Source: Candidatus Fermentibacter danicus (GTDB lineage: Bacteria > Fermentibacterota > Fermentibacteria > Fermentibacterales > Fermentibacteraceae). Taken from it: a stretch of DNA of 64,000 nt. A program made the position numbers and the translations under genes. Under the pieces are notes generated by a model. It was not told the DNA's origin. It ran no database searches and was given only the letters and a program-made list of their open reading frames with translations. The stretch is taken from the NCBI GenBank assembly GCA_001618605.1, contig LKHC01000101.1:1-64000 (forward strand), in the 5' to 3' direction. Position 1 is the stretch's first letter. Each line of letters begins with the position of its first letter. Of this stretch, positions 13,644 to 43,532 are shown piece by piece.

Positions 13644-13942
13644 GACCTGTTCAGCTTCTCCTCCAGAGCCTTTCTCTTCCTCTCGAAATCGACCCATCGC
13701 TCCGCGAAAGCATCCACGGTCCGCTGCAGATCGACGAGATTCTTTTCGAGGCTGCGCCTCGTCTCCTCTCCCCGGCCGTCGTGCCTGGACATCTCCAGAT
13801 CGAGCCTCATCCGGGTCATCCTCTCGTTTATCTCCTCCCAGGCCATTCTGAAGAGGTAGTCGGGAGGAGAGGAGTGATCCTGTACATGATGAGGAGGAGT
13901 CTCCCCCGTCGAGGATTCCCTGGAGGAGTCTCCGTCAGCCAC
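13640..13942 (-). CDS. Small coiled-coil protein, unknown function
   Basis: About 100 residues, beginning at GTG 13942, eight bases inside the end of parB and so likely translated with it. After a Ser/Thr/Pro-rich start it is charged and helical: YLFRMAWEEINERMTRMR, then SLEKNLVDLQRTVDAFAERW, then ERKRKALEEKL. No known domain was recognised. Its position after parAB could mean a chromosome-segregation or cell-division accessory role, but that is only context. It shares a pattern with the convergent neighbour at 13326-13643. Confidence 0.6.
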   Translation of the reverse strand: MADGDSSRESSTGETPPHHVQDHSSPPDYLFRMAWEEINERMTRMRLDLEMSRHDGRGEETRRSLEKNLVDLQRTVDAFAERWVDFERKRKALEEKLNRS

Positions 13943-14780
13943 CCATCATCTCCAGTATCCTCTGAAGGTCGTTCAGGGACGAGTATTCGACGACGATGCT
14001 GCCGCGGCCGCCGCGATCCCTTATCCTCACCCTGGTTGAGAATCTCCTGGTGAGCCTCTCCTGGAGATCATGCACTTCGGCGGTCTGGGCCGCGGTGTTC
14101 TTCCTGACGCGCGGACGCGAGGCCCTGCGGACGTATTCCTCGAGCTGCCTCACCGACATGTCGTTCGACACCGCGAGTTCGGCTGCGGCCTCGATCGCCT
14201 TTGCATCGCGAAGGGCGAGGAGCGCCCTGCCGTGACCCATAGAGAGCCTTCCGTCCGAAAGCATTGCCCTGGCCCCTTCGGGAAGCTCCAGAAGTCTCAT
14301 CAGGTTCGAAACCGTAGATCTGTCCAGGCCGGTCTGGCGCCCCATTTCCTCCTGTGTGAGATTGAAGAGGGAGGAGAGTCTGCCGAACGCCTCGGCCTTC
14401 TCCAGCGGACCGAGGTCGCGCCTCTGGATGTTCTCCACCAGCGCCCAGGCGAGCATCTGGGCGTCCGTGGCCTCGCGTAAGACCGCCGGAACCTCCTCGA
14501 GACCGGCCATCCTGGCCGCCCGGAGCCTGCGCTCGCCCGCTATGACCTGATACCTGAGATTCTGCCTCCTCAGCACGAGAGGCTGAAGAATCCCCTGTTC
14601 ACGGATCGAATCCGACAACGACCGCAACTCGTCCTCGTCCCACTCCTGCCTCGGCTGATGCGGGTTGGGCTCGATCCGGTCAACGCGGATCATGCTGATC
14701 TGCCCCTGTGACGATTCGCTCATCGCGGGAAGGAGGGCTTCGAGGCCCCTTCCCAGAACCTTCTTCTTGGGCTGGGTCAT
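13935..14780 (-). CDS. parB: Chromosome partitioning protein ParB (CTP-dependent clamp)
   Basis: A 281-residue ParB/Spo0J/Noc protein. The N-terminus KKKVLGRGLEALLP is the usual ParA-stimulating motif. The CTP-binding domain has IEPNPHQPRQ and the GERRLRAARMAGL box. The helix-turn-helix region covers LTQEEMGRQTGLDRSTVSN and reads parS. The C-terminal dimerisation domain ends in SSLNDLQRILEMMGG. It loads as a clamp at parS; two matching sites lie 1.4 and 2.6 kb upstream. The start is ATG 14780, overlapping the parA stop (ATGA). An open reading continuing into parA is only an accident of frame. Confidence 0.96.
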   Translation of the reverse strand: MTQPKKKVLGRGLEALLPAMSESSQGQISMIRVDRIEPNPHQPRQEWDEDELRSLSDSIREQGILQPLVLRRQNLRYQVIAGERRLRAARMAGLEEVPAVLREATDAQMLAWALVENIQRRDLGPLEKAEAFGRLSSLFNLTQEEMGRQTGLDRSTVSNLMRLLELPEGARAMLSDGRLSMGHGRALLALRDAKAIEAAAELAVSNDMSVRQLEEYVRRASRPRVRKNTAAQTAEVHDLQERLTRRFSTRVRIRDRGGRGSIVVEYSSLNDLQRILEMMGG

Positions 14781-15535
14781 CTGGAGATCAACTCCTCGGC
14801 GAGCTGCAGGTAGCTCCTGGCTCCCTGTGATTCCACGTCGTAGTGGAGCACCGGCTTTCCGAAGCTCGGAGCCTCGCTCAGCCTGACGTTCCGCGGTATT
14901 CTCGTATTGAGGAGGATTTCGCTGAGATGGTTCTCGGCATCCGCTTCGACTTCCCGGCTCAGCTTCAGCCTCCTGTCGTACATCGTCAGGAGGACGCCCT
15001 CCATTTCGAGGTCCGGATTCCAGAGCTGCCTGACCTTGCGGATTGTGTCCAGCAGGTGCGACAGTCCTTCGAGCGCGTAGTATTCGCTCTGGAGGGGCAG
15101 GAGAATCGAATCGGCCGCCACGAGGGCGTTCAGAGTCAGCAGCCCGAGAGACGGCGGGCAGTCGATAAGGACGAAATGGAACCTCTCGACCTCGGGGACT
15201 CTGAGCTTGTCGCGCAGGAAGAATTCGCGATTGTTCTGCTGCGCCAGTTCGATCTCGAGACCGGCGAGATCCCTGGAACCGGGAATCGCCCACACGCCGT
15301 CGTATCCGGTTTCCACCATCGAGCCTTCCAGGTCGGTTGCGCCCGTGAGAAGGCTGTAGGCGTTCCCGGTCGAAGGGATCTCCATGCCCATGCCGCTCGT
15401 GGCGTTGGACTGGGGATCGAGATCGATGACCAGGACATCCCTGTCGTAAGCGGCAAGGCTGGCCGCGAGATTGATGACGGTAGTGGTCTTGCCCACACCG
15501 CCCTTCTGATTCGATACGGAGATGATCCTGCTCAT
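14777..15535 (-). CDS. parA: Chromosome partitioning ATPase ParA (Soj)
   Basis: A 252-residue deviant Walker-type ATPase. It begins RIISVSNQKGGVGKTTTVIN, with the signature lysine of the KGGVGKTT motif. VLVIDLDPQSNATSG is the A' region and FVLIDCPPSLGLLTLNAL the Walker B region. It forms DNA-bound ATP dimers and moves ParB-parS complexes apart. The start overlaps the stop of rsmG by four bases and the stop overlaps the start of parB. The rsmG-parA-parB order is the standard origin-proximal arrangement. Confidence 0.97.
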   Translation of the reverse strand: MSRIISVSNQKGGVGKTTTVINLAASLAAYDRDVLVIDLDPQSNATSGMGMEIPSTGNAYSLLTGATDLEGSMVETGYDGVWAIPGSRDLAGLEIELAQQNNREFFLRDKLRVPEVERFHFVLIDCPPSLGLLTLNALVAADSILLPLQSEYYALEGLSHLLDTIRKVRQLWNPDLEMEGVLLTMYDRRLKLSREVEADAENHLSEILLNTRIPRNVRLSEAPSFGKPVLHYDVESQGARSYLQLAEELISR

Positions 15536-16176
15536 GGGAAGGCCTTTCGGGTGCTCGCGGCCGCCCCGGGCCGCCTGATCGGAATACGATACTGCGCAAG
15601 AACCCCCGGCCGGTCAAGCGGAGGCACGGGGAGAACGAGTGAACGAATCGCGCCCTCCGCCCCCCCGTCGTCCGGTGAAACCCTCACCGTCAGCGTTCCG
15701 GAGTGACCGAGCTTCTCCATCAGGACGAGCAGTCTGTCCAGGGGCATCAGAGCCCTGGCGGTGAACTGCGGGGAAGCCCCGCTCCAATCCTCGAACCGGC
15801 ACCTGACCACCGTGACCTGAGGGAGACCGAGTTCCCGGGAGGCGTACTCGAGGAAAAGGGCACGGTTTCTCCTGGGTTCGATGAGTGTGGCCTCGAATCC
15901 GAGAAGGGCCAGCACGATGCCGGGGAATCCGGCACCCGAACCGATGTCCGCGACGGGTCTCGAACGGTCCAGCAGGAGAGAGAAGGCGGCGGATTCGAGC
16001 AGATGTCTCTCCCAGAGCCTTCCCGTCTCTCCCGGGCCGGTGAGGTTGATCACCCTGCCACGGTCCCTTATCATGGACATGAAGCGGTTAGCCGATTCGG
16101 CGAAACCACCCGGACTATCGATTCCCAGGCCGGCAAGATCGGCTTCGATCCGTGTCCCGTCAACGGGATGTTCCAC
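15532..16176 (-). CDS. rsmG: 16S rRNA (guanine-527-N7) methyltransferase
   Basis: RsmG (GidB) methylates G527 of 16S rRNA using SAM. The 214-residue protein has INLTGPGETGRLWERHLLES, then the SAM-binding VADIGSGAGFPGIVLALL, LIEPRRNRALFLEY and TARALMPLDRLL. Translation starts at GTG 16176. The GTG is the centre of a parS-like palindrome, and AGGAGGG stands just upstream of it. The gene overlaps the end of mnmG by 17 bases and parA by four. Confidence 0.95.
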   Translation of the reverse strand: MEHPVDGTRIEADLAGLGIDSPGGFAESANRFMSMIRDRGRVINLTGPGETGRLWERHLLESAAFSLLLDRSRPVADIGSGAGFPGIVLALLGFEATLIEPRRNRALFLEYASRELGLPQVTVVRCRFEDWSGASPQFTARALMPLDRLLVLMEKLGHSGTLTVRVSPDDGGAEGAIRSLVLPVPPLDRPGVLAQYRIPIRRPGAAASTRKAFP

Positions 16177-17980
16177 GTGGAACCCTCCTGAGAACGCCGA
16201 CCAGCAGGCATTCCATGTCCGAAGGCCTCATTCCGGGGATGCGGGAGGCCTCGCCGAGGCTGGACGGTCTTGCTTTCTGCAGCGCCTCCCTCGTCTCACG
16301 GCTCAGCCCTTCCATTCCGAGGTAATCGGTGACCCCTTCCAGGCTGATCTCCGAAAGCCTGTCCAGTTCGCGAGCGCGTCTTTCCGCTCTGGATACGAAG
16401 CCTGCATAGCGCTCGTCCAGCGCCACCGAGAACACGAGGTCGGGATCTTGTCCCGAGAGCGACGGCTCCGACGCCGCCAGACCCGCTACGTCGAATCCCG
16501 TCCTCCTGCAGAGGTCGGCGAGCAGCACTCCGTTCCTTCTAACGGTTCGAAGCGCTCTCGATATCTCCCCCGCGCCCTCCTCGATCGAACGAAGCCTCGC
16601 CTCATCTCCGTCCCTTTCGAGACCGCTCCTGACCGATACCGGGAGCATCCTCCTGCATGCGTTGTCCTGACGAAGGTTCAGCCTGTTCATCGCCCTGGAG
16701 GAGTATAGTCTGTACGGTTCTGTAAGATCGGCTCCGGCTATATCCTCGAGCATTACGCCCAGGTAGCTTCCCTCAGACGTCGGTACGAAGCGGGAACCGG
16801 ACCCGCGCGCCCCGGCCGCGGCGTTGGCGCCCGCCACGAGACCGAGACCGGCCGCTTCCTCGTATCCGGACGTTCCGCATGCCTGTCCCGCCACGAAGAG
16901 GTTGTCAGCCGCCTTCAGTCTCAGATTCTCCTCTATCTGACCGCCCGGCAGATACCCGTACTCCACCGCATAGCCCCATGACGCCACGACTGCGCCGGAG
17001 CATCCCGGCAGGGATCTTATCATCTCAATCTGTCTCCGCCTCGACAGGCTAGTCGACATCCCCCCCGCATAGACGATCCGGCAATCGAGGCCGACAGGCT
17101 CCAGAAACACCGGGTGCTGTGTCCTTTCGGGGAATCTCACCACCTTGTCCTCGAAGCTGGGACAGAACCTCGGACCTCTTCCCGTAATCGCTCCGGAGTA
17201 CAGCGGCGAGCCGGCCAGACCCGATCTCGCCGCTTCGATGACGCTTCTTCCGGCCCTGGTCGTGAAGCAGACGGCCCGCTTCCTGCTGGTCTCGACGGTT
17301 GTTCTCGAGGAAAGCCTCCAGTCGTTTCCTTCCTCCTGCTGGACTTCCATGGCGGAGAAATCTATCGACTCTGCAACCAGCCTCGGGGGGGTTCCGGTCT
17401 TGAACCGTTCCACGTGGAACCCTCGTTCGGAAAGGTGCTTCGAGAGAGCATCCGCAGCAGGATCTCCGGTCCTTCCTCCGCTCCATCTCTCCCTGCCGCG
17501 GTACAACATTCCCCCGAGAAAAGTCCCCGTGGCAATGACGGCCGATCTGCAGGCGATCTCCCTTCCATCCGCCAGGATGGCTCGCTCTACTCGATCCCCC
17601 GCCCACCCGAAGGACACGACCTCGCCCTCGACCAGTGTCACTCCCGATTCACGGAGGGCATTGCGCACATATCCGGCGTATGATCTCAAGTCACACTGGA
17701 CCCTCGGTCCCCATACCGCCGGCCCCCTGCTCCTGTTCAGCATCCTCGCCTGTACGGCCGAGGCGTCTGCCGCCTCCGCAATCACCCCGCCAAGCGCGTC
17801 TATCTCCTTTACGAGCGTCCCCTTTGCCACCCCTCCTATCGAGGGATTGCAAGACAATGCGCCAATCGAAGCGATCCTCATCGTCACCAGCGTGGTCGCC
17901 GCCCCGCATCTCACCGCAGCCAGAGCCGCCTCTGCACCCGCGTGCCCTCCTCCGACAACGAGCACATCGCATGGCTTCAC
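16160..17980 (-). CDS. mnmG: tRNA uridine-5-carboxymethylaminomethyl modification enzyme MnmG
   Basis: MnmG (GidA) is the FAD-dependent partner of MnmE in making cmnm5U34 in tRNAs. At 606 residues it is near the family norm. The FAD-binding DVLVVGGGHAGAEAALAA is at the start, then IGALSCNPSIGGVAKG with a conserved Cys, and TGTFLGG. PRFCPSFEDKV and GQACGTSGYEEAAGLG are further family blocks. The start is GTG 17980, overlapping the mnmE stop (GTGA). The longer frame reaching into mnmE is not real. A second parS-like site (17406-17421) lies within the coding region, and the stop region contains the first one. Confidence 0.96.
   Translation of the reverse strand: MKPCDVLVVGGGHAGAEAALAAVRCGAATTLVTMRIASIGALSCNPSIGGVAKGTLVKEIDALGGVIAEAADASAVQARMLNRSRGPAVWGPRVQCDLRSYAGYVRNALRESGVTLVEGEVVSFGWAGDRVERAILADGREIACRSAVIATGTFLGGMLYRGRERWSGGRTGDPAADALSKHLSERGFHVERFKTGTPPRLVAESIDFSAMEVQQEEGNDWRLSSRTTVETSRKRAVCFTTRAGRSVIEAARSGLAGSPLYSGAITGRGPRFCPSFEDKVVRFPERTQHPVFLEPVGLDCRIVYAGGMSTSLSRRRQIEMIRSLPGCSGAVVASWGYAVEYGYLPGGQIEENLRLKAADNLFVAGQACGTSGYEEAAGLGLVAGANAAAGARGSGSRFVPTSEGSYLGVMLEDIAGADLTEPYRLYSSRAMNRLNLRQDNACRRMLPVSVRSGLERDGDEARLRSIEEGAGEISRALRTVRRNGVLLADLCRRTGFDVAGLAASEPSLSGQDPDLVFSVALDERYAGFVSRAERRARELDRLSEISLEGVTDYLGMEGLSRETREALQKARPSSLGEASRIPGMRPSDMECLLVGVLRRVPRGTSR
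16169..16184. promoter_or_regulatory. parS site 1 (ParB-binding centromere)
   Basis: TGTTCCACGTGGAACC has the 12-base palindromic core TTCCACGTGGAA. It matches the general parS form TGTTNCACGTGNAACA at 13 of the 14 fixed bases and is, as far as I recall, the form used in Pseudomonas. It covers the end of mnmG and the GTG start codon of rsmG, 1.4 kb from parB. Confidence 0.9.
17406..17421. promoter_or_regulatory. parS site 2 (ParB-binding centromere)
   Basis: CGTTCCACGTGGAACC has the same 12-base core and differs from site 1 in its first base only. It lies inside mnmG, 1.24 kb from site 1 and about 4.5 kb from dnaA. Confidence 0.88.
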
Positions 17981-21560: not shown

Positions 21561-21872
21561 CTGTCTTCTCCCGGTCGACCCGCACGGGTCGTCTGTGTTG
21601 CTTTCACGGCTTGACTGGAGGTCCCCGCGGGACAAAATTGTGCCTGCCGCATCCGGCGGCTGGGGGAAATATGCTACTCCTCAAACAAGGTTCTGTCAAG
21701 TCGGTGCCCGTTATGGAAAAAAAGTTGCTTGTCCGAAATCGACATCTTTTTCAGGCTTCTTCCGATGAATCGTTGTAACGTCTTGATATCCAGAAAGTTG
21801 CTGTCTGTGAAACCTGTGGACAACTCTGTGGAAAAGAACTGTCCGGCATATCGGACAAGGCTTTAGGTTTTC
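21561..21872. other. rpmH-dnaA intergenic region with DnaA boxes (candidate part of oriC)
   Basis: This 312-base gap holds the rpmH promoter, an AT-richer stretch (about 21711-21840) and DnaA-box-like sites TGTGGACAA (21815-21823, one mismatch) and TGTGGAAAA (21827-21835, a perfect match to TGTGNAWAA). A perfect inverted repeat TGTCCG-6-CGGACA is at 21840-21857, just before dnaA. Gene direction diverges here. No additional gene is seen. Confidence 0.65.
21671..21699 (-). promoter_or_regulatory. Promoter of the rpmH operon
   Basis: On the minus strand TTGACA (21699-21694) and TAGCAT (21676-21671) are spaced by 17 bases. It lies about 110 bases upstream of rpmH and reads away from dnaA. Confidence 0.7.
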
Positions 21873-23243: not shown

Positions 23244-23462
23244 GGCTGTCCATATCCTGTCGCGAAACCCCGTCCTGGTCTCCGCCTGTGGAAAACTCTT
23301 CCTTCACTGTCTCGATCTGCACACCTTTTTCCACATCGGACCCTCTTGCGGCGCAATCCACACCCTAGCAGTTCGACAGTTTCTTCGATATAATAGTATT
23401 CAACTTCTGTCTCTGTTTTCTATGCTTCTACTGGTCCCAGCCGTTCCACGGAGGGCTGCACG
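23244..23462. other. dnaA-dnaN intergenic region with DnaA boxes (candidate oriC)
   Basis: DnaA boxes match TGTGNAWAA exactly at 23287-23295 (TGTGGAAAA) and, in opposite orientation, at 23327-23335 (TTTTCCACA); a weaker site is at 23354-23362. An AT-rich stretch follows at about 23372-23430, holding TATAAT at 23389-23394, a likely -10 box for dnaN. Boxes plus an AT-rich tract between dnaA and dnaN form a typical origin. Confidence 0.65.
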
Positions 23463-24633: not shown

Positions 24634-29396
<4,763 letters not shown>

Positions 29397-32300
29397 GAAG
29401 CTGAAGCTGTGGCACGTTGCCAATGAGCCACGCCCATCTCCGGTTCCGGAGGTGAGCGCCGAGGCGGCTCTTCCGATCGATCTCCTCGATTCCACTCACG
29501 CGGACCCGGCCATGGTGCGCGAACTCTCCGCCCTCCGGGTATTCGACAGGAGTGGCTGGGAACCCGTCTGTTCCGATGTTGCGCTGATAGTTTCAAAGCT
29601 GAGCCCCGCCTCGAGGGAGAGGCTCCTGGAAAGCCTCTCCCTGATATCCTCGCCTCCTCCGGTCGAGCCTGTCCTGGTCAGGAAATGGCTGAGCGCGGTA
29701 AACGGCCTCCTTCCCTCGTCCTATCCCACGGCCGTGATGGAATTCTTCCAGCTCGCCTGGATGTGGGAACAGCTCCGGACGGTAACCGGCCTCGATCTCG
29801 AAAGAGTGCTGGCCATGTTCTTCCGCGCCCTGAGAGGGGTAGGGGAGGGGCCCAGGTCCGCCCCCATGATCCATTTCCTGCTCCAGCTCGCCGGCCGGTG
29901 GCCGGAGAGATTCTGCTTCTGGCTGGACCGGACGGCTACCGGCGGGCCCGACGTGATACAGGCTCTGAAGATCGCCGAGAGCATGACGAAGGATGCCGCC
30001 CCGTTCGCGAGGGAGACGCTTCTGGATTTCGGAGCGGAGATGGGCTGGAGATTCCTCGACGAGGAATCGATGCCTCTATGGAGAGCGGTCGGAAGGCTCG
30101 GGGAACTCCTTCTCCGAAGGCTCCGCGGCATCGCCGTGCCGGTCCAGTCCATGCATCTCATGGCGGGAGTGCTGGGTCAGATCGAGAAGAGCGCCGAACT
30201 CGATGCGATAATGACCGAGGTGAGAATACGCGTAGCCGGTTCCATGTTCGGTGAACAGGACAGGGAAGTCATCCAGGAAGCCCTGGATCTCGTTCCTGAA
30301 GTTCACAGGGAGCTGGAAGCTGTAGGAGAGATTGAGCTGATAGTCCAGGTGACGGCGCTGAGGGGGGCCTTCACCAGCCCCAGGCTCGTGGGAGAGGCCC
30401 TCGTGAAGCTGGCTATGCTGGCCGGAGGCGGTTCCCTGGACACCTCCGTCCTGATGACGCTCATCGAGAAGTTCGAGGGCCAGGTTCAGGAGACGCAGGT
30501 TCTCAATGCAGTCGAAGTTCTTTCCGGCATTACGGGTTCCGTTCCGGTCCACCCGGTCGACACCTGGTTCAGGCTCATACGCCTTGTGGGAGCGAGTGGA
30601 GAAGAGACGGATACCTCCAGGGCGCACAAGAACGCCATGGCCAGGGTGCTCGAGGCTCTGGTGATGCAGCCCGAGCCCGGCCCCGGTCTGGACGTCCTCG
30701 AACAGATACTCACTATTCCCTCCGTCTCCGCACAGGAGGTCTTCCAGGCCGCCGCCCTGCTGCTGCGCACGGATCTTCCGACCGACAAGGCCGGCATCCT
30801 CAGGAAGACCGGCCAGTGCGTGAGACTCCTGTCGCTGATGACGCCGGACGACAGGGACAGGCTCCTCTCCAGCATACCGCCGCAGTGGCTCACAGCTCTT
30901 GCTTCGGAGGAGACTGACTCCTTCCGGACGGTCTGCGACGCCGTCGAAAAGCTCGATTCGCAGGCCAGGATCCCCAGGTTCCTGGACAGGGTGGTGACTC
31001 CGCTGCTGGAGGAGATCTCCGCCCGCGGGGATGTCTTCGAAGAGTACCTCTCGGCCGCGGTCGTCGAGTACAACAGAATGCCCGCCCAGGGCCGCGTCCG
31101 CGACACCGAGCACGAGCTGCTCAAGAGGCTCTTCAGGGCTGGAGACGGCGCCAAGACCATCGACAACTCGATCTCCGAACTGCTCAAGGTTCCCGGCCTG
31201 GAGGAGGACAGGGTCTCCAGCCTGGTGGAGACCGTCCGGACCCTGTGTTCGGCGTTCTGCCGGCAGGCGGCCTGGCAGGATCCCTCGGACAACACCATGG
31301 CCCAGTTCCTCGAAAAGGGCCTTCCCAGGATAATCACCTCCCTGGTCGACTGCCCCGAGTCTCTGGATACGATCACTCCCTCCAGAATGATGGATCTGGT
31401 TCGTCAGCTCATGCCCTCCAACGCCGCCGGCGACACCGACTCCCAGATCGCCCGCTGGCATACCAGGACAGGAGCCTCCTTCTTCGGACAGGTGCTGCCG
31501 ACCGCGATAGAGATACTCCCGGACGAACCCGGGACACTGGCCTTCTTCGTCGAATCCATCGCCTCCCAGGCCATGAGGTCCGTGCAGGGGCTTCCCGCGG
31601 GCGCGGGGTATCTCAACGAGGTTGCCGGCAGGCTCGAACACATGCTGATAGAATCGTACGCCGCGAAGATCCGTCTTCTCGGAGGCCGGAGGGGGGAGAT
31701 CACCCCCGAGATCCCGGAAGACTGGGCGGCGGAGGTCTACTCGGGCTGGAGCAAGGTACGGGCCTCGGAGGCAGCCCTCCTGAAGGAGGCCACCCAGATA
31801 TCGCGCATCCTGACGGGTGACAGGAAGATGCAGCGGGTCTTCATAAACCAGGCGAGGAAGCTGTGGGAGGGCCTGTCCCGGGCCGGACTGCTCGCCCGGC
31901 CCCAGATGCTGCGAAACACCAGGGAGGGCCTGGCGACGATCTCCGATCTCGCCCACGGCGAACTCCTGGAGCTGTTCCGTCTCCACGAGCAGGGGAAGGG
32001 ACTCGTATCGACCCAGGCCTCGGAGAAGGCCGAGCGCCTGTTCGCGAGACGGGCATCGGACCATTCCGGCGACAGTGCGAGCCGGAGCTGGAGGATGGAG
32101 GTCTTCACCCCGCTCGGGAACTGTCTCATAGATCTCCTGCTCCTGGATGGGGCCAGGACACCCGGGCTCGACAACCTGACGGACGGATTCCTGGAGGTTG
32201 CGGAGTTCCTCGGAAACGAGACGGGGGGAGACGAGCTCCTTCTCGCCTTCCAGAGATGCCTTTCCTACGGTTCGTCCGGCATCGGCGAGTCCGGCGTCGC

Positions 32301-32983
32301 CCAGGCCCTCAAGACGGCGGAGAAACAACTCTTCCGGCCCCTGTGGAGGCGCAGGGCCATGAGCAGGATCGAACTCGTCATCGCAGGGCTTGGCAATCGC
32401 GAGAAACTCGTGGACAGTCTTCTCGACAGGATCGCGAGGGAGCCCGGCGTCGTCTCGCAGGTGAGGTTCCTGAGGCAGTTCGGATCGCTGTTCCTGACAA
32501 TAGAGGAGGTCATCCTCGAGTTCGAGGACAGGAGACAGGAGCTGGGCGTCAGGGACTGCCTGAACGGTGTGTGGCTCATTTCGGGCACCGGCAGGCGGCC
32601 TTCAGGAGTCGCAGAGGCCGCGAGAGAGGCCTTCGAGGCTGCTTCCGAGGTCTTCAGGAGCATCCGCCGCAGGAAGGGCGAGATCACGGCCATCGAGGCC
32701 GAAGAGATCAGCGCCGAGATGAGACGCCGCTACAGGGACAACGCCGACGTGATGGCGACCCTTCTCAGATGGACGCTCGACCCGGCGAGGGAGGAGCTTC
32801 TGGGTGTACTCGAAGGACACCCCGTCCTGCTGGAGGCGGTGAGCAGGGATACCGAACTGATCCACCTGATGGACGGGCTCTTCAACAAGGAGGGTTTCCT
32901 GAACGACGTATCAGCGCTCGCAGACGACCCCGAAGCCCTGAAGAACAGGCTGATGCACATGGCGCGTCTTTCGGAGTGAAGGA

Positions 32984-34449: not shown

Positions 34450-34812
34450 ATGGGCCGTGATGATTCATCGCGTTCGTCGTCGATGAACTCGATAGTGGGT
34501 TCCGGGAGCGTGTTCAACGGGACGCTCCGCATGGAAGGGGGCCTGCGCGTCGACGGCACCATAGAAGGGCAGATCGATGTCACCGGCACTCTGACGGTGG
34601 GCCACGACGGGCTGATCCGCGGCGACGTCAGTGCAACCGAGGCGATCATCGGAGGAACCGTCATAGGAACAATCCGTGCGGACAATCAGCTCGAACTCCA
34701 GCACGGCTCGAGGGTCGAGGGAGACATCTTCACCCGTTCCCTCATCATCGAGGATGGCGTATTCTTTGAGGGGAACTGCCGCATGCGCCCCGAAGGGGAG
34801 CATGAGGTCTGA
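34450..34812 (+). CDS. Bactofilin
   Basis: A 120-residue polymer-forming cytoskeletal protein (bactofilin/DUF583). After a disordered Ser-rich start, the beta-helix core begins at NSIVGSGSVFNGTL and repeats G-x-[hydrophobic] turns: LRVDGTIEGQI, LTVGHDGLIRGDVSA, VIGTIRA, SRVEGDI. Bactofilins polymerise without nucleotide and often localise cell-wall enzymes or chromosome factors such as ParB. ATG 34450 has GGGAGG upstream. It follows the membrane coiled-coil gene, with which it probably works. Confidence 0.93.
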   Translation: MGRDDSSRSSSMNSIVGSGSVFNGTLRMEGGLRVDGTIEGQIDVTGTLTVGHDGLIRGDVSATEAIIGGTVIGTIRADNQLELQHGSRVEGDIFTRSLIIEDGVFFEGNCRMRPEGEHEV

Positions 34813-34979
34813 CTCGGGAGCCATCGATGTGGAAAATGTGGAAAAGTCCTCCCCGCTGTGTAAAACTAAGTATCTTTTAGATAGACAATATTATGTGTCG
34901 TTAACATAAAGGTGTTTGGCAGGTTGTTTCCACAAGTGCATGAGGCAGACATGGCACATTGTCGAAAGGCGGAAACGGC
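34813..34979. other. AT-rich intergenic region with DnaA-box cluster upstream of V-ATPase
   Basis: Three exact matches to the DnaA box TGTGNAWAA lie in the same direction: 34828-34836 and 34837-34845 (directly adjacent) and 34857-34865 (TGTGTAAAA). A fourth with one mismatch, in the opposite direction, is at 34926-34934. Between them, 34861-34918 is very AT-rich for this genome. It must also hold the V-ATPase promoter; TATTAT is present but I could not pair it with a good -35. Confidence 0.6.
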
Positions 34980-35297
34980 GTGACAGGATCGCTCGACATC
35001 CTGAAGCAGGCCGAACGCGAGGCCAGGCAGACCGTTGAGGACGCCCGGAGAAAGGCTTCCTCCATCAGGGCTGCGATACCGGGGGAGATTGCCGCTCTCG
35101 GTGAGGAACTGAACCGCAGGGTGGCCGTCGAAACCCGGAAGAGGGAGGAGGCGGTCAGGAGTTCGGTAGATGCCGGGAAGAGCGTTCTCCTCCGGGCATC
35201 TGAGGAGAGGATCGAGCGCCTGCGTTCGATGGAGGAGGAGCTGACCGCCAGGGCCCTGAAGACTCTCTCCGAACTCCTCTCGGTCCGGGAGGGCTGA
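34980..35297 (+). CDS. V/A-type ATPase peripheral-stalk subunit (H/G-like)
   Basis: A 105-residue charged, helical protein: SLDILKQAEREARQTVEDAR, then a long Lys/Arg/Glu-rich coiled coil. Archaeal and bacterial V/A-ATPases start their operons with such a subunit (AhaH, NtpF). It pairs with subunit E in the peripheral stalk. GTG 34980 is chosen because AAAGGCGG stands upstream; an earlier TTG at 34959 has no ribosome site. It is the first gene of the operon and is separated from subunit I by one base. Confidence 0.8.
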   Translation: MTGSLDILKQAEREARQTVEDARRKASSIRAAIPGEIAALGEELNRRVAVETRKREEAVRSSVDAGKSVLLRASEERIERLRSMEEELTARALKTLSELLSVREG

Positions 35298-35298
35298 C

Positions 35299-37338
35299 TT
35301 GGCGATAGACCGCGTCTCGAAGACGAGGGCTATCTGCCACTCCTCGGAGCGTGACGGCCTGCTCGCCATTCTCGAGTCCAGCGGCGGCTTCCACCCGGCC
35401 TCCCCCGACGACTCCCAGGACTGGCTCCTCCCGGCCGGGCTCGATACATCCGCCATCGCGGGCCGGATCGACGAACTCGAGTCGGTCATAGGCTTCCTGC
35501 GAGAGTTCAGGCCGAAGCCCGGCCTTGTGGAGAAGCTCGGCACCGTCCCGAGGAGCATTCCGGCAGACAGGCTGACAGCCCTGCTGCATGACGGGGATCT
35601 GCTCTGGAGCGCGCGGCGGGCATGGCGGCTCGCGATGCTGATTTCCGAACGAAGCGGCGACCTGCAGGAAGCCCGCGAAGAGGAATCCTTCCTGTCGGCC
35701 TGGGCCGATCTGGACATTCTGCCGGAGGAACTCGGCGAGCATGGCTGCGGCTGCGGATCCCTCACGATACACGCGGGGGTCTGCCCTGCCTCGTCGAGGG
35801 AGGCGCTGACAGCCCTGGACGGGTCCGAGCCCCTGGCGGCTGTTCTGGAACTCGTCCCCCCGAACCCTGACGGGACGGCCAGATTCGTCGTGTGCATCCA
35901 TTCCGCAGCCTCCGAAGAACTCCGCCAGGAGATATCGAGACTCGGTTTCTCCCCTGTCGACTTCGGGCACAGGAAGGGTCGCGTCTCCGATCTCCTCGAA
36001 TCGGAGCGCCGCAGGATCAGAGCCCTCGAGAAGCGAATCACAGAGTTTGAAACGGAGGCCGCCGCCCTCTCGGACCGCCTCCCCGATCTCGAGGAGCTGA
36101 GGGATGCGGCGGGGCTCCTCCTGTCGAGGCTTTCCGCCACTGGGGCAGGTCTTGCGGGGGACAGGCTCTTCACGATACAGGGATGGGTGCGGGACAGGGA
36201 CTTCGACAGGCTCGCAGCCTCCGTCTCCGGGCTCGGAGCCGCCCTCCTCGAACGGATAGAACCGGACGAGGACGAAGAGCCGCCCTCGGCCATAACCCAG
36301 AGGGAAGTCTTCGATCCCTACGCCATGTTGACGGAGATGTTCGGCAGCCCCTCCCCCTCGGACCCCGATCCGACTCCTCTCATGGCTCCGTTCTACTCTC
36401 TCTTCCTCGGCATCTGCATCGGTGACGCCGGCTACGGAGCCGTCCTCGCGGCCCTCGCAGGCGCCGGAATCCTTCTGGAGAAAAGGAAGGGCCGCCGTAA
36501 CAGGCTGTTCGGCATCCTGTTCCACGGCGGCATCGCCGCGATCCTGGTGGGAACCCTGTTCGGAGGATGGTTCGGAATGGACAGGGCCTCCCTGCCGTCC
36601 TTCATGACCGCGCCGGCCGCCCTGCTGGATTCCCTCGTCCCAGACGGGAGTTCGTACAGCGTCTCGATGCAGTTTCTCTACACGACGATGGCTCTCGGGG
36701 TAGTACAGCTCCTGGCCGGAGTCGTCATCAACTTCGTGAAGCGCTGGCGGAACGGAGAACGAGCGACGGCGGTCCTCGAACAGACCGGCTGGGTGCTGGC
36801 CGCCGTGGGGCTCTTCCCCTGGCTGTTCAACCACTACCTGCTCGAAGGGGTTCTCTATGACAGCACGGGTCCCATGGACGGAATCCTGCTGTTCTGCCTG
36901 TTTGCCGGCGCCGTTCTGATCTTCATAATGGGCGGCCGGGAGGCCAGGGGCTTCGGGAAGGTCGGCCTCGGCATGATGGCCGCCTACGGGATAGTCAACC
37001 TTCTTGCGGACGCCCTCTCCTATTCGCGGCTGTTCGCCCTCTCTCTGTCGGGGGGGATAATCGCCACCGTCGTGAACCAGATATCCCGTATGCTCCCCGG
37101 AACGGACATCCCTGGATTCGGCCTCCTGATCACGATTCCGGTCCTGGTGTTCGGCCATGTCTTCAACATCGCCATGTCCGTCCTCGGAGGCTTCATCCAT
37201 ACCGCAAGGCTGCAGTTCGTCGAGTATTTCGGCAAGTTCTACGAGGGCACGGGGGTCCCGTTCTCTCCCTTGCAATACAAATCCCAGTATGTAAACATTA
37301 TCCGTGACAACCAGGATCCCGAAGGGGGTAGCAGGTGA
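35299..37338 (+). CDS. V-type ATP synthase subunit I (a)
   Basis: A 679-residue stator subunit. The N-terminal half (about 1-330) is cytoplasmic with a coiled coil near 230-270 (RRRIRALEKRITEFE). The C-terminal half has the membrane helices, starting at LMAPFYSLFLGICIGDAGYG and including YSRLFALSLSGGIIATVVNQ, where the conserved arginine near the rotor glutamate lies. It forms the ion half-channels. It starts at TTG 35299 with GGGAGGG five bases upstream. The stop overlaps the GTG of the K subunit. Confidence 0.93.
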   Translation: MAIDRVSKTRAICHSSERDGLLAILESSGGFHPASPDDSQDWLLPAGLDTSAIAGRIDELESVIGFLREFRPKPGLVEKLGTVPRSIPADRLTALLHDGDLLWSARRAWRLAMLISERSGDLQEAREEESFLSAWADLDILPEELGEHGCGCGSLTIHAGVCPASSREALTALDGSEPLAAVLELVPPNPDGTARFVVCIHSAASEELRQEISRLGFSPVDFGHRKGRVSDLLESERRRIRALEKRITEFETEAAALSDRLPDLEELRDAAGLLLSRLSATGAGLAGDRLFTIQGWVRDRDFDRLAASVSGLGAALLERIEPDEDEEPPSAITQREVFDPYAMLTEMFGSPSPSDPDPTPLMAPFYSLFLGICIGDAGYGAVLAALAGAGILLEKRKGRRNRLFGILFHGGIAAILVGTLFGGWFGMDRASLPSFMTAPAALLDSLVPDGSSYSVSMQFLYTTMALGVVQLLAGVVINFVKRWRNGERATAVLEQTGWVLAAVGLFPWLFNHYLLEGVLYDSTGPMDGILLFCLFAGAVLIFIMGGREARGFGKVGLGMMAAYGIVNLLADALSYSRLFALSLSGGIIATVVNQISRMLPGTDIPGFGLLITIPVLVFGHVFNIAMSVLGGFIHTARLQFVEYFGKFYEGTGVPFSPLQYKSQYVNIIRDNQDPEGGSR

Positions 37339-37778
37339 ACGAGTTCCTCTCTTACTCCGGGGTTGCCATCGCAGCGGCTCTTGCCGGCATCGGCTCCGCT
37401 GTCGGAGTGGGCATGGTGGGCCAGGCGGCCGCCGGGGTTCTCAGTGTCGATCCCAAGAAGTTCGGCAAGCTCCTCCTCCTCGTCGCTCTTCCCGGCACGC
37501 AGGGCATCTACGGCTTCGTCATCGCATTCCTGCTCCTGCAGAGGATAACCGCTCAGACGACGCTCACGAGTGATTTCGCACTGCAGTCCTTTCTCGCCGG
37601 GATTCCCGTCGCCCTCACCGGCCTCCTCTCCGCCATACACCAGGCCAAGGTAGGCGTCTCGGGCGTCGCACTGGCGGCGAAGCAGCCTGCGGATGCGACG
37701 AAAGGCCTCATTCTCGCGGTGTTCGTAGAGTTCTACGCCATCCTCGGCTTCCTCGTGTCATTCCTTATGCTCCCGTAG
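37335..37778 (+). CDS. V-type ATP synthase subunit K (c ring)
   Basis: A 147-residue four-helix rotor subunit with two related hairpins. The ion-binding glutamate is Glu132 in FVEFYAILGFLVSF; the first hairpin has no acidic residue in the matching place. Leu52, Thr55 and Gln56 (LPGTQGIYG), Gln103 (HQAKVG) and Glu132 correspond to Leu61, Thr64, Gln65, Gln110 and Glu139 of the sodium-binding Enterococcus hirae NtpK, with a constant offset of 9 and then 7. That points to Na+ as coupling ion. It starts at GTG 37335, overlapping the subunit I stop. Confidence 0.94.
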   Translation: MNEFLSYSGVAIAAALAGIGSAVGVGMVGQAAAGVLSVDPKKFGKLLLLVALPGTQGIYGFVIAFLLLQRITAQTTLTSDFALQSFLAGIPVALTGLLSAIHQAKVGVSGVALAAKQPADATKGLILAVFVEFYAILGFLVSFLMLP

Positions 37779-37790
37779 GGGCTGTAAGGG

Positions 37791-38384
37791 ATGTCACTCG
37801 AATCGATAGCGGCCAGGATCAGGGAGGATGCGGCGAATGAGGCCGCCGGTCTCGTCGAGGCCGCGGATTCCGAAAGGCGGTCCGCCCTCGACGAAGCCAG
37901 AAGGCGGCTCGAGGAGGAATTCGCCCGGGATCTCGACAGGGTCGCCAGGAATGCCTCTGAACTCGAGGCCAGGCTGCGCTTCCATGCCGCCCGCGAGGCC
38001 GACAGGATGGTCGAGACGGAGAAGAGGGCCCTTCTGGACAGGGCGATCACGAATGCGGTCGAGAGGCTCGCCGGCCTTCCGGACGCGGAGTACGGCGAAC
38101 TCGTGACCTCGATCCTCTCTGCCTGCACGATGGAGGGCGACATAGACGTGGCCATCTCGGAAGACGACGCGGACAGGATAACGCCTGCGCTCCTCAGGAA
38201 AGCCTCTGGAAACGGCAGGAACTTCCGCCTGATCCCGGAGAGGCACGGCGGCCGCGGCGGGGTGATCATGAGTTCCGGCGGCGTAAGCTTCAACGCCACA
38301 TTCTCGATGCTCGCCTCCCTCGAGAGGGAGAGGCTGGTAATGGAACTCGCCCCGATGCTGGCGGATTCCGGCAGCCGCGGATGA
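37791..38384 (+). CDS. V-type ATP synthase subunit E
   Basis: A 197-residue peripheral-stalk subunit. The N-terminal half is a long charged helix (IREDAANEAAGLVEAADSER and on), the C-terminal half a small alpha/beta domain with FRLIPERHGGRGGVIMSSGG, typical of subunit E. ATG 37791 has AAGGG just upstream. It sits between K and C, the normal place. Its stop overlaps the ATG of subunit C. Confidence 0.88.
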   Translation: MSLESIAARIREDAANEAAGLVEAADSERRSALDEARRRLEEEFARDLDRVARNASELEARLRFHAAREADRMVETEKRALLDRAITNAVERLAGLPDAEYGELVTSILSACTMEGDIDVAISEDDADRITPALLRKASGNGRNFRLIPERHGGRGGVIMSSGGVSFNATFSMLASLERERLVMELAPMLADSGSRG

Positions 38385-39358
38385 GGAACCCGTACCTCTA
38401 TCCCAACGGCAGGATCGGGGCCCTCGAGAAGGATCTGCTCCCCGCACGGACATGGCAGATGCTCCTGTCCGCGGCCGATTCGGTCGAGGCTTCCCGCCTC
38501 CTTGCGGACACCTGGTACGGCCGATTCCCTGGGCTTTCGCAGTGTGCCTTCGAAACCGTGTTCGAAGCCGCCCAGGCGGCTTCCGAACAGGAATTGATGG
38601 AACTCTCGGAGGATCGGGCGCTCGTGAGAGGGATTCTCCATCGCCGCGACGCCCGCAACGCGCGATATCTCTGGAAGGCAGCCCTGTGCGGGGGGAATGC
38701 GGACGGCCCCGAACTCGAGAAGCCGGGGCTTGTGGAGCATTCACTCCTCGCATCGGCCCTTGCGGACGAGGAAGCCCGGAAGCTCCTCCCCGCGGCCATG
38801 AGCGCAGCAGCGGAGGAACTCTCCTCCCTGAGCGATCCGTCCCCGCTCGAAGTGGACAGGATACTGGACAGGATGGCCGCCGGCCTGGAACTCGATGAAT
38901 TCTCATCCATGGGGCCCGGCTTCAGGCGCCTGCTCGAAACCATGATCGATTCGAGGAACGTCACGACCTGCATCAGGATCATGCTCTCCGGGAGCAGGGA
39001 GGATCTGTCCCCCGGAGTTCTCCTGGAGGGGGGGACGGTTTCCCGGAAGGCGGTCTGTGGTGCCGCCCTGGAGGGCTCCCTGCCGGACTTCGTCGCCGAC
39101 ATCGAGAATCTCGAACGGCTCGCCCCGTTCGTGAAGGAGACTCTCTCCTCCAGATCCTTCCTCGAACTCGAGCGCGAAACCGAGCGGGTGATCATGGAGA
39201 TGCTGGATGCCGGCTCCTTCGAACTGTTCGGCCCGGCTCCGCTCGCCGCATTCATTTTCAAGAAGGAGATGGAGATGAACCATCTCAGGATACTGCTCGC
39301 GGCTAAGGCCGCCGGCATGGACAGGGCGCGTCTCTCCAGGCGCCTGCCGAGAGGCTAG
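38381..39358 (+). CDS. V-type ATP synthase subunit C (d)
   Basis: A 325-residue helical subunit of the archaeal/bacterial C (eukaryotic d) family, which forms the socket between the central stalk and the c ring. It begins NPYLYPNGRIGALEKDLLP, and EASRLLADTWYG is typical. The C-terminus holds the conserved KKEMEMNHLRILLAAKAAG. The start is ATG 38381, overlapping the subunit E stop (ATGA). Confidence 0.9.
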   Translation: MRNPYLYPNGRIGALEKDLLPARTWQMLLSAADSVEASRLLADTWYGRFPGLSQCAFETVFEAAQAASEQELMELSEDRALVRGILHRRDARNARYLWKAALCGGNADGPELEKPGLVEHSLLASALADEEARKLLPAAMSAAAEELSSLSDPSPLEVDRILDRMAAGLELDEFSSMGPGFRRLLETMIDSRNVTTCIRIMLSGSREDLSPGVLLEGGTVSRKAVCGAALEGSLPDFVADIENLERLAPFVKETLSSRSFLELERETERVIMEMLDAGSFELFGPAPLAAFIFKKEMEMNHLRILLAAKAAGMDRARLSRRLPRG

Positions 39359-39364
39359 GACGCC

Positions 39365-39691
39365 GTGTCCGGACAGGGAATCGCATTTATCGGCGACCCC
39401 GACTCCTCCCTCGGTTTCAGGGCGCTGGGCGTTTCGGTGGAGAACCCCTGCAACGCCGAGGAGGCCGTCCGGGCCTTCCGCGGCGCCGTAGCCGGAGGAG
39501 CGTCCGTCATAATGATAACAGAGGCCATGCTGGACCATCTCCGCGAGGAAGTGGAACGCACGGCCAAAAGACCCATACCCGCAGTCGTCGTTCTTCCCGG
39601 CATCACCGGGTCGGCGGGCCGCGGAGGAGATACGATCAGACGGCAGATAACGCGAGCCGTGGGCGTCGATCTCATGGCTGAGGAGCGATAG
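39365..39691 (+). CDS. V-type ATP synthase subunit F
   Basis: A 108-residue Rossmann-like subunit. IAFIGDPDSSLGFRALGV is the conserved start, followed by SVIMITEAMLDHL and VVVLPGITGS. It binds subunit D in the central rotor shaft. The start is GTG 39365, six bases after subunit C. A gap of 27 bases leads to subunit A. Confidence 0.92.
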   Translation: MSGQGIAFIGDPDSSLGFRALGVSVENPCNAEEAVRAFRGAVAGGASVIMITEAMLDHLREEVERTAKRPIPAVVVLPGITGSAGRGGDTIRRQITRAVGVDLMAEER

Positions 39692-39718
39692 CCCTCGGAT
39701 TCCGGAGGTCTCCAGGCA

Positions 39719-41503
39719 ATGACAAAGGGCACCATCAGGAAGGTCGCGGGACCGCTCGTCGTTGCGGGCGGTATGGCCGAGGCCAGGATGTACGACGTGG
39801 TCTATGTCTCCGACATGCGTCTCCTGGGCGAGATCATCGAGATCAAGGGCGACGCTGCGTCCATCCAGGTCTACGAGGAAACATGGGGCCTCGGCCCGGG
39901 CGATCGCGTCTACAGCACCGGCGAGCCTCTCTCCCTCGAACTCGGCCCCGGTCTGCTCACCTCGATATACGACGGAATCCAGAGGCCGCTCGACAAGGTC
40001 CGCGAGCGCTCCGGCGACTGGATATCCAGAGGGATCAACATACCGGGCCTGGATCATTCCAGGCGGTGGGAATTCACGCCGACCGCGACCGTGGGGTCCG
40101 CGGCGACCGGCGGCGACTTCCTCGGCTCGGTCCCCGAGACCGCAACGGTCGAGCACAGGATAATGATTCCCCCAGGCATCTCCGGAACCCTCGCCTGGGT
40201 CGCCCCGGCCGGTTCCTATACGATCGACGAAGTGATAGCGAAGGTCAGGACGGCCTCCGGCGAAGAGGTCGATCTCCGTATGTACCAGAAGTGGCCGGTC
40301 AGACGGGCTCGTCCCGTGCAGAAGAAGATGGCTCCCACCGAACCCCTGGTGACGGGTCAGCGCGTGATCGATGCCTTCTTCCCCGTGGGCAAGGGCGGAA
40401 CGGCCTGCGTCCCGGGGCCGTTCGGCAGCGGGAAGACCGTCATACAGCACCAGCTCGCAAAATGGGCGGACGCCGAGATCGTCGTCTATGTCGGATGCGG
40501 CGAACGCGGCAACGAGATGACCGATGTACTGCAGGAGTTCCCCGAGATTCTCGACCCCAGGAGCGGCAAACCCCTCATCCTGCGCACCGTGCTGGTCGCT
40601 AACACTAGCAACATGCCGGTGGCGGCGCGTGAAGCCAGCGTCTACACCGGGATGACCATAGCGGAGTACTTCCGTGACATGGGCTATTCGGTCGCTCTCA
40701 TGGCGGACTCCACCTCCAGATGGGCCGAGGCCATGAGGGAGATGTCGGGCAGGCTCGAGGAGATGCCGGGTGAGGAGGGCTACCCCGCCTATCTCGGAAC
40801 CAGGATCGCCGAGTTCTACGAGCGGGCCGGCAAGGTCCACTGCCTCTGCTCCGGCGAGAGGGAGGGAGCGCTCACCGTGGTCGGCGCCGTCAGCCCGGCC
40901 GGGGGCGATCTGTCCGACCCCGTGGTCCAGGCCACTCTGAGGGTAGTGAAGGTCTTCTGGAGCCTCCAGGCGAGGCTCGCCTACATGCGGCACTTTCCCG
41001 CCATCGGATGGCTGGAGAGCTATTCCCTGTACACGGAGAACCTCCGGGACTGGTACGGGAAGGAGCTGGACGCCGGCTGGACGGCACTACGGAACGGCGC
41101 GATCGCCCTTCTACAGGAGGAGGCCAACCTCCAGGAGATTGCGAGGCTCGTAGGCGCGGAATCCCTCTCTTCCGAAGATCAGCTCACGCTCTTCACCGCC
41201 AGGTCGATCCGCGAGGACTTCCTGCACCAGAATGCATTCCACGAGGTGGACACCTTCTGCTCGATGCGGAAGCAGGTCCGCCTGCTGGGTCTGATCATGT
41301 CGATACACGAGTCCCTGTCCCGCGCCATAGGAGCCGGGGCCTCACCGAAGGATCTATTTTCCCTGCCCTTCCGGGAGTCGGTGGCCCGGGCCCGGTACGT
41401 GCCCGAGAATCGACTTGAGGAAATCGACCGGATCCTCGAAACCGCCGGTTCCGAAATCGAGGGCGTGCTCGAACAGACTGCACGCGCGGGGGAGGGAGCC
41501 TGA
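39719..41503 (+). CDS. V-type ATP synthase catalytic subunit A
   Basis: A 594-residue catalytic subunit. The P-loop is GPFGSGKT at residues 233-240, and the characteristic non-homologous insertion lies at about 115-190. [30 protein letters not shown]-type and [20 protein letters not shown] blocks are all present, with small variations. It hydrolyses or makes ATP together with subunit B. ATG 39719 is the start; the stop overlaps the ATG of B by one base. Confidence 0.96.
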
Positions 41504-42894
41504 TGATCCGCGAATACAGGACTACCGTCGAGATTTCCGGGCCTCTGATGTTCGTCGAGAACGTCGAGGGAGTGACCTACGAGGAGCTGGCCGAGATCGA
41601 GCTGCCGGACGGGACGATCCGGCACGGCAGGGTACTCGAGGTGAACGAGTCGATGGCTCTGGTCCAGCTCTTCGAAGGTTCGAGCGGCGTCGGCATCTCC
41701 CAGAGCGTCGTGCGGTTCCTCGGAAAGAGCGTCGAGCTTGGTGTTTCCGAAACCATGCTGGGCAGGGTCTTCGACGGGCAGGGACGCCCCAGGGCGCCCT
41801 TCGACACGTTCCCTCCCATAGTCCCGGACAGGATGATCAACATCAACGGTTCGCCGCTGAACCCCTACGCGAGGGACTACCCGGCGGAGTTCATCCAGAC
41901 CGGGCTGAGTTCGATAGACGGGATAAACACCCTCGTCCGAGGTCAGAAGCTACCGGTCTTCAGCGCGAGCGGCCTCCCGCACTCCGCCGTGGCGGCGCAG
42001 ATCGCCAGGCAGGCAAGGGTGATCGGCGAGGGCGAGAGCTTCGCAGTGGTGTTCGCCGCGCTTGGGATCACCTTCGAGGAGGCCGACTACTTCATCCGCG
42101 ACTTCAAGTCGACGGGAGCCATGGACAGAGCGGTCGTCTTCCTGAATCTCGCGGATGACCCGGCGATAGAGAGGATCGCCACACCCAGGCTCGCCCTGAC
42201 GGCGGCCGAGTATCTGGCTTACCAGAAGGACATGCACATCCTCGTCATCCTGACCGACATGACGAACTACTGCGACGCGCTGCGCGAGATATCCGCAGCA
42301 CGCCGGGAGGTTCCGGGAAGACGGGGTTATCCCGGGTATCTCTATACCGACCTCTCCACCATCTACGAGAGAGCCGGCCGCGTGAAGGGGAGAAAGGGTT
42401 CGATAACGCAGATCCCGATCCTCACGATGCCCGAGGACGACAAGACGCATCCGATACCGGACCTGACCGGGTACATCACGGAGGGTCAGCTCATCCTGAA
42501 CCGCGAGCTGCACAAGAGGGGCGTCTATCCCCCGATGGACGTAATGGAGTCGCTTTCGAGGCTCAAGGACAAGGGTATCGGGAAGGGCAAGACCCGCGAG
42601 GATCACGCCGACCTGTTCAACCAGCTCATGGCGGCCTACTCGGCAGGAAAGAACGCCCGTGAACTGGCCGTGATCCTGGGCACGGCGGCGCTCAGCCCGC
42701 TCGACCAGCAGTACCTGAGGTTCGCCGAGGAGTACGAGAGGCGGTACATAAGCCAGGGTGAGGGCGAGAACCGCACCATCGAGGAAACCCTGGACCTCGG
42801 CTGGGAGCTGCTGAAGCTCCTGCCACGCGAGGAGATGAAGCGGGTGAGGCCCGAGCACCTCGACAAATACTGGCCCGCAGGGGAGCATTCCTGA
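41503..42894 (+). CDS. V-type ATP synthase subunit B
   Basis: A 463-residue non-catalytic subunit. The region where A has a P-loop reads [19 protein letters not shown], as expected for [10 protein letters not shown]-like, [20 protein letters not shown] and [20 protein letters not shown] are conserved. It lies between A and D, overlapping both by one base, so the three are tightly coupled. Together with A it forms the A3B3 hexamer. Confidence 0.96.
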
Positions 42895-43532
42895 TGGCCG
42901 TAGTCGTTCGCGCCACCCGCATGGAGCTGCAGACGCTCCGGAAGCGGTCGGTCCTCGCGCGGCGCGGGCACAAGCTGCTGAAGGACAAGCTGGACGAGCT
43001 GATGAGGCAGTTCAAGATCCTCATCGCGGAATACATGGGCGCCCGCCAGAAGATCGAGGGGGAGCTTCTCGAGGCATACAGGGAGTTCCTCTTCGCACGC
43101 GCCTCCATGCGACGGGAGGCCCTGGCCGACGCCCTGCGCTATCCTGGAGCCGTTGCGGTCGTCCACGGCTCTACACGCAAGGTGATGAATCTCACTCTGC
43201 CGGAATTCGACGTCTCCATGGAGGGCAGCATCCGCAACTACGGGATGCTCGACACCACTCCGGAACTCGACGCCTCCCTCGAGGTCTTCGCCCGGGTTCT
43301 TCCGGGAATCGTAAGGCTCGCCGGCCAGGAGAAGGCGATAGGCATCCTCGCGGCGGAGATCGACAGGACGAGACGGCGGGTGAATGCGCTCGAGTACATC
43401 CTGATTCCCGAACTGGAAGAGGCCGTTTCCCGCATCAGGCTCAAGCTCGAGGAAATCGAGCGCGGGAACCTCACGAGGCTGATGAAGGTCAAGAAGATGG
43501 CGGAGCGGAAGAGGGAGGGGACGCTTCTCTGA
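42894..43532 (+). CDS. V-type ATP synthase subunit D
   Basis: A 212-residue central-stalk subunit made of two long helices. RATRMELQTLRKRSVLARRG and LKDKLDELMRQF mark the N-terminal helix, and NALEYILIPELEEAVSRIRL the C-terminal one. It rotates inside A3B3 and contacts F. It is the last gene of the nine-gene operon; a separate promoter follows. Confidence 0.94.
   Translation: MAVVVRATRMELQTLRKRSVLARRGHKLLKDKLDELMRQFKILIAEYMGARQKIEGELLEAYREFLFARASMRREALADALRYPGAVAVVHGSTRKVMNLTLPEFDVSMEGSIRNYGMLDTTPELDASLEVFARVLPGIVRLAGQEKAIGILAAEIDRTRRRVNALEYILIPELEEAVSRIRLKLEEIERGNLTRLMKVKKMAERKREGTLL

Follow-up and report, generated by a model that had tools for sequence, protein, structure and literature searches.

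A DnaA-box cluster of fixed spacing upstream of the V/A-type ATPase operon in Fermentibacterota, a possible DnaA control element

DnaA is an ATP/ADP-sensing protein which initiates replication, and DnaA-boxes are its binding sites. Detailed studies of groups of DnaA-boxes outside oriC exist, to our knowledge, for only a handful of model bacteria, and we know of no model organism among the Fermentibacterota. In E. coli the DnaA-boxes concentrate near oriC (PMC12371093), and the sites datA, DARS1, and DARS2 are non-coding groups of boxes outside oriC in which the spacing of the binding sites is conserved and the intervening DNA drifts (PMC4585315). The DnaA regulon of E. coli contains closely spaced pairs of boxes upstream of genes, with a preferred gap of 2–3 bp between the two boxes (PMC11317965). 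In B. subtilis eight strong DnaA-binding regions, each with several boxes, were found in vivo, most of them outside oriC and some with a role in transcription (PMC4447404). A fourth type of locus, the origin located between dnaA and dnaN, has boxes adjoining an AT-rich stretch.

The locus described here is found in a window of 64,000 nucleotides (the whole stretch of DNA that was analysed), in the gap between a bactofilin gene (34450..34812, plus strand; PF04519, E 1.5e-27) and the operon for a V/A-type ATPase (34959..43532, plus strand). The operon consists of a small first gene, whose true start is probably the GTG at 34980, followed by the genes for subunits I, c, E, C, A, B, and D. Three exact matches to the DnaA-box consensus TTWTNCACA are present on the minus strand of the gap, all within 38 bp. 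Box 1 (34828..34836, TTTTCCACA) and box 2 (34837..34845, also TTTTCCACA) touch each other head to tail, and the start of box 3 (34857..34865, TTTTACACA) is 20 bp from the start of box 2. Then comes an AT-rich spacer with no strand (34866..34916), which among relatives is constant in length but variable in sequence and in AT-richness, and after that the inverted box 4 on the plus strand (34926..34934, GTTTCCACA), which starts 69 bp from the start of box 3 and is not an exact box because it has one mismatch. A weakly conserved block with the approximate limits 34907..34925 (plus strand) lies immediately to the left of box 4 and has the form ACTTAAAGTAGTTT in the largest genus. The preliminary description of this DNA had reported three exact boxes, two of them touching head to tail, upstream of the ATP synthase operon, and both statements hold; the fourth box in reverse which it mentioned is indeed inverted, but inexact.

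The boxes in the gap are real as DnaA-box sequences and occur far beyond chance. The window contains seven TTWTNCACA matches where 0.42 would be expected, and none of 100 shuffles reached seven. In the 2.01-Mb metagenome-assembled genome (MAG) as a whole there are 13 matches, to be compared with 12 for a reversed-pattern control, so the genome-wide number is at chance level and the signal is therefore the clustering; if 13 boxes were placed randomly, about 2e-7 triples within 38 bp would be expected. A clustering of boxes beyond chance is one property that the gap shares with an origin of replication. It should be noted that boxes and AT-rich DNA, when judged by eye, may indicate the wrong origin.

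Matches with GyrA assign the genome to the Fermentibacterota (Candidatus Aegiribacteria / Fermentibacteraceae). The gap was compared in 42 genomes of the order, and the order was taken to stand for the phylum. Subunit I is present in 40 of them (it is missing in G038 and G040), and in these 40 the gap could be read: 39 gaps were aligned, and that of G024, which was read by eye and is kept outside the counts based on 39, has the same layout as the others. Boxes 2, 3, and 4 are kept in all 40 readable gaps between the bactofilin and V-ATPase genes. In the aligned gaps box 2 is found within one mismatch in 38, box 3 in 36, and box 4 in 38 of the 39; box 1 is found at this level in 20 of 39, the present genome included. 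Throughout the 39 aligned gaps box 3 has an offset of 20 bp from box 2. The inverted box 4 follows at 69 bp from box 3 in 22 of these gaps and at 68 bp in the other 17. As a control the frame of box 2 was moved by 1 to 12 bp, and boxes appeared only at −9, which is box 1. The 11-bp spacer between boxes 2 and 3 was scanned for a hidden box in the 39 gaps, and no strongly raised match was found. Twelve of the 42 genomes have the exact touching pair, each as a single copy and in every case in this gap. In G016, G027, G030, and G039 the bactofilin reading frame crosses boxes 1 and 2, and its C-terminal sequence is NVENVEKI.

The DNA between the boxes is poorly conserved in the order. In the present genome the 60-mer starting at box 3 (34857–34916) has the highest AT content of the window, 73%, and this stretch had suggested an unwinding element, but the AT content of the 45 nt following box 3 ranges from 47 to 80% in the 39 genomes; often it is no higher than in the rest of the gap, and in genera with low GC it is unremarkable. 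A conserved AT-rich unwinding element is thus not a property of the gap. The combination of a fixed spacing and a variable AT content leads to the conclusion that it is the geometry, and not an unwinding element, which is kept by selection. The fixed spacing across the phylum suggests that DnaA may control something at this gap.

An origin at this position, whether the true oriC itself or one part of it, had been among the four readings offered by the preliminary description. A related explanation is that the gap is a second or ancestral origin, which is or was oriC and is still used in some lineages; the box cluster, the AT-rich stretch, and the inverted box of the present genome speak in its favour. 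We calculated the cumulative GC skew of 13 contigs of the order, 12 of them with dnaA (the contig of G004 is without it). In 11 of the 12 dnaA contigs the skew minimum is at the end of dnaA or at dnaN, 10.5–11.9 kb upstream of subunit I; the exception is the contig of G011, which carries dnaA and has its minimum elsewhere. In 1-kb bins the mean skew goes from −0.061 to +0.100 at the dnaA end/dnaN and is still positive across the V-ATPase gap, where there is no switch. For the plus-strand genes from dnaN to the gap, TA3 is below that of all lagging classes in each of the 13 genomes, and GC3 exceeds that of all lagging classes in 11 of them. By these third-position skews dnaA resembles lagging genes of the left replichore and the segment from dnaN to bactofilin belongs to the right replichore. 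A GC3 test gene by gene is noisier and gives no sharp switch by itself: dnaN (−0.112), gyrB (−0.062), and bactofilin (−0.139) tend to negative values, and dnaA has a negative value in all 12 cases.

The gap between dnaA and dnaN (23244..23462, plus strand) is the likely oriC, with boxes at 23287 (minus strand) and 23327 (plus strand), a near-box at about 23356, an AT-rich end, and the skew switch; one more TTWTNCACA match is found upstream of dnaA (21827..21835, minus strand). The counts for the dnaA-dnaN gap refer to 28 genomes, because G039 and G016 gave no motif match and were dropped from 30 dnaA loci. The boxes are conserved in this gap, the best position being found within one mismatch in 27 of the 28 genomes, and so is an AT-rich element which contains TATAAT. 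This genome thus has an ordinary dnaA-dnaN origin layout, and an origin at the V-ATPase gap is rejected for the Fermentibacterota on the basis of the skew switch and the replichore signal at dnaA/dnaN. A skew switch and a coverage peak at 21.6–23.5 kb, together with boxes that were not conserved, had been named beforehand as the outcome that would speak against the preliminary description; the skew switch is there, but the boxes are kept. In many of the 28 genomes the sequence GTGACA-18 bp-TATAAT precedes dnaN with a DnaA-box inside the spacer, and this element is likely a dnaN promoter under DnaA-boxes. To the left of dnaA two palindromes resembling parS (16169–16184 and 17406–17421) lie within or next to mnmG, not far from a ParB gene (13935–15617, minus strand), and similar pairs are seen in many relatives.

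The described loci nearest in kind to the gap are datA/DARS, the strong DnaA-binding regions in B. subtilis, and the promoters with box pairs in E. coli, and we do not claim that it would be a member of any of these kinds. Like datA, DARS1, and DARS2 it is a box group outside oriC with the spacing kept and the intervening DNA drifting, and it is non-coding except in the four genomes where the bactofilin frame covers boxes 1 and 2. It differs from them in being 12 kb from oriC, in its box layout, and in its position beside an ATPase operon. The B. subtilis regions have several boxes per chromosomal region as the gap has, but in the accessible text no common gene context with the gap is seen, and the boxes of the gap are predicted sites. 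As in the E. coli regulon, paired boxes are situated upstream of genes; here, however, 0 bp and 11 bp separate the boxes instead of 2–3 bp, there is a fixed inverted partner 68–69 bp away, and the gene downstream codes for an ATPase. An origin of the dnaA-dnaN type also has boxes next to an AT-rich stretch, but in this genome the skew switch is at the dnaA-dnaN gap.

Two of the four original readings survive, a DnaA titration site and DnaA control of V-ATPase expression. According to the former the gap would be an origin-proximal site for titration of DnaA or for control of its activity, similar to datA, DARS, or a DnaA-box cluster, and the neighbouring operon would be incidental. Replication would reach such a site within seconds of its start, and either the doubling of the site or the complex formed on it would lower the amount of free or active DnaA. 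This is the main rival of our preferred reading; we consider it doubtful, though to be taken seriously. In all 28 genomes of the order which have both on one contig, subunit I is found 12.2–13.3 kb downstream of the dnaA domain, so that proximity to oriC is inseparable from proximity to the operon within the phylum. A titration or activity site would also agree with the concentration of boxes near oriC and with the conserved spacing of datA/DARS in E. coli (PMC12371093 and PMC4585315, respectively). Furthermore, box 4 and the start of the operon are separated by anything from 39 to 136 bp, as measured with a rough script, and a rigid inner spacing combined with a variable distance to the operon suits a DnaA complex, possibly one without a role in transcription. 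A search on both strands of 39 gaps revealed no sigma-70 promoter with a constant position, which likewise favours titration or activity control, and a scan of the gap in the window found no sigma-70 promoter either. For this reason it is from the position of the boxes only that we infer a control of the promoter. The block beside box 4 was considered as a general promoter and rejected, because its 32-mer form is present in only 18 of the 42 genomes (two genera), at the V-ATPase junction; one MAG with 7% contamination (G039) has an additional copy of this 32-mer.

The comparison with genomes outside the order favours DnaA control of the V-ATPase. The 4 kb upstream of subunit I was scanned for exact boxes in seven such genomes with weaker matches to subunit I, and an exact-box cluster was found in one, G044, which has three exact boxes. 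The gene order in G044 is parA, parB, M23 peptidase, bactofilin, gap, small gene, V-ATPase subunit I, and the junction of bactofilin, gap, and V-ATPase, as recognized by Pfam, recurs in this second phylum. A search in 15 genomes of the second phylum that are at least 80% complete found subunit I in 14, and 13 gaps were inspected. In all three genomes of G044's genus a minus box is followed by an inverted plus box at +76 bp and, after about 53 bp more, by a second plus box, some of the boxes having one mismatch. In G071, which belongs to the same family as G044, the head-to-tail pair is present and the inverted box is poorer. Runs of one-mismatch boxes are found in the V-ATPase gap of three genomes of family f23, and the inspected gaps of families f22 and f24 have no such box cluster. 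This patchy occurrence in the second phylum, and the single exact-box cluster among the seven scanned genomes, speak against control of the operon. An exact box spelling of the gap in G044's genus, TTATCCACA, is also found in exact boxes beside dnaA in G044 and G073. In G044 at least 93 kb separate the gap from dnaA, which is on another contig. The cluster thus stays with the V-ATPase away from dnaA, and the junction itself is kept across phyla, and for this reason we prefer control of the operon to titration or activity control. Boxes upstream of a gene and conserved together with it, as for a promoter regulated by DnaA, are found in 40 of 40 readable gaps of the phylum and in one family of the second phylum.

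G044 also provides an argument for a second origin. The cumulative skew of its 51-kb contig is lowest at 23992, about 0.6 kb away from the boxes in the gap; the genes for V-ATPase, bactofilin, M23 peptidase, ParB, and ParA are all on the same strand; and 155 kb of the surroundings of dnaA show no skew switch. An unusual position of the origin is therefore possible in G044 (G044:C24:23320-24100). On the other hand the amplitude of the skew in G044 is small, another genome of the second phylum (G061) has a clear skew switch at dnaA, and G073 from G044's own genus has a weaker one there. Together with the skew at dnaN in the order, the replichore signal, and the AT-richness that is not conserved, this makes a second or ancestral origin quite improbable.

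Our best explanation, which we hold to be about equally likely to be right or wrong, is that the box cluster is a cis-acting element through which DnaA would control the V/A-type ATPase operon, and not an origin. DnaA would bind side by side to the head-to-tail boxes 1–3 and meet DnaA bound to the inverted box 4, the approximately 60 bp between them being bent or looped, and the complex would cover the DNA immediately upstream of the operon. The amount of DnaA or its nucleotide state, which shifts at the start of replication, would then raise or lower the expression of the ion-pumping ATPase. The binding of DnaA, the joint action of the boxes, and the transcription of the ATPase genes as the target are all features that we infer from the DNA. 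A more far-reaching formulation, which is only tentative, is that a rigid DnaA switch on the V/A-type ATPase operon, composed of two or three boxes head to tail and an inverted box at the distance of one DNA bend, exists in the whole phylum and in part of another and couples the ATPase to the replication cycle, the junction in G044 perhaps being at the origin.

Whatever its function, the spacing is kept nearly to the base pair throughout a phylum, at an ATPase operon. If the DnaA switch exists it would represent an old link between energy and initiation. An action of the cluster on the ATPase operon would be direct evidence of DnaA linking replication to energy metabolism; an action on DnaA itself would make it a new member of the control sites represented by datA/DARS. 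A literature search gave nothing on DnaA-boxes in Fermentibacterota or on the regulation of an ATP synthase operon by DnaA, and ATP synthase did not turn up in a term search through the accessible text of PMC8203912.

The sites might also be used by another protein with a motif similar to the DnaA-box, or by the second DnaA-family ATPase of the genome, since this genome and many of its relatives code for a second protein with the Bac_DnaA ATPase domain. That protein is, however, without DnaA domain IV in Pfam, and the boxes of the gap are spelled like the boxes flanking dnaA, so that we find this explanation very improbable. The second Bac_DnaA ATPase domain (L002, G000:C116:27831-28292) is followed by a long tail and lacks the C-terminal helix-turn-helix of DnaA according to Pfam; similar proteins are present in many genomes of the order, and the protein could be a regulator of DnaA of the Hda sort.

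Two further observations concern other parts of these genomes. Between gyrA and the asparaginase gene the window contains a frame of 1226 codons (29299–32979) with no Pfam match. Many contigs of G002 have the 9-mer TTATACACA within tens of bases of their ends, and it looks like a dispersed repeat which breaks the assembly.
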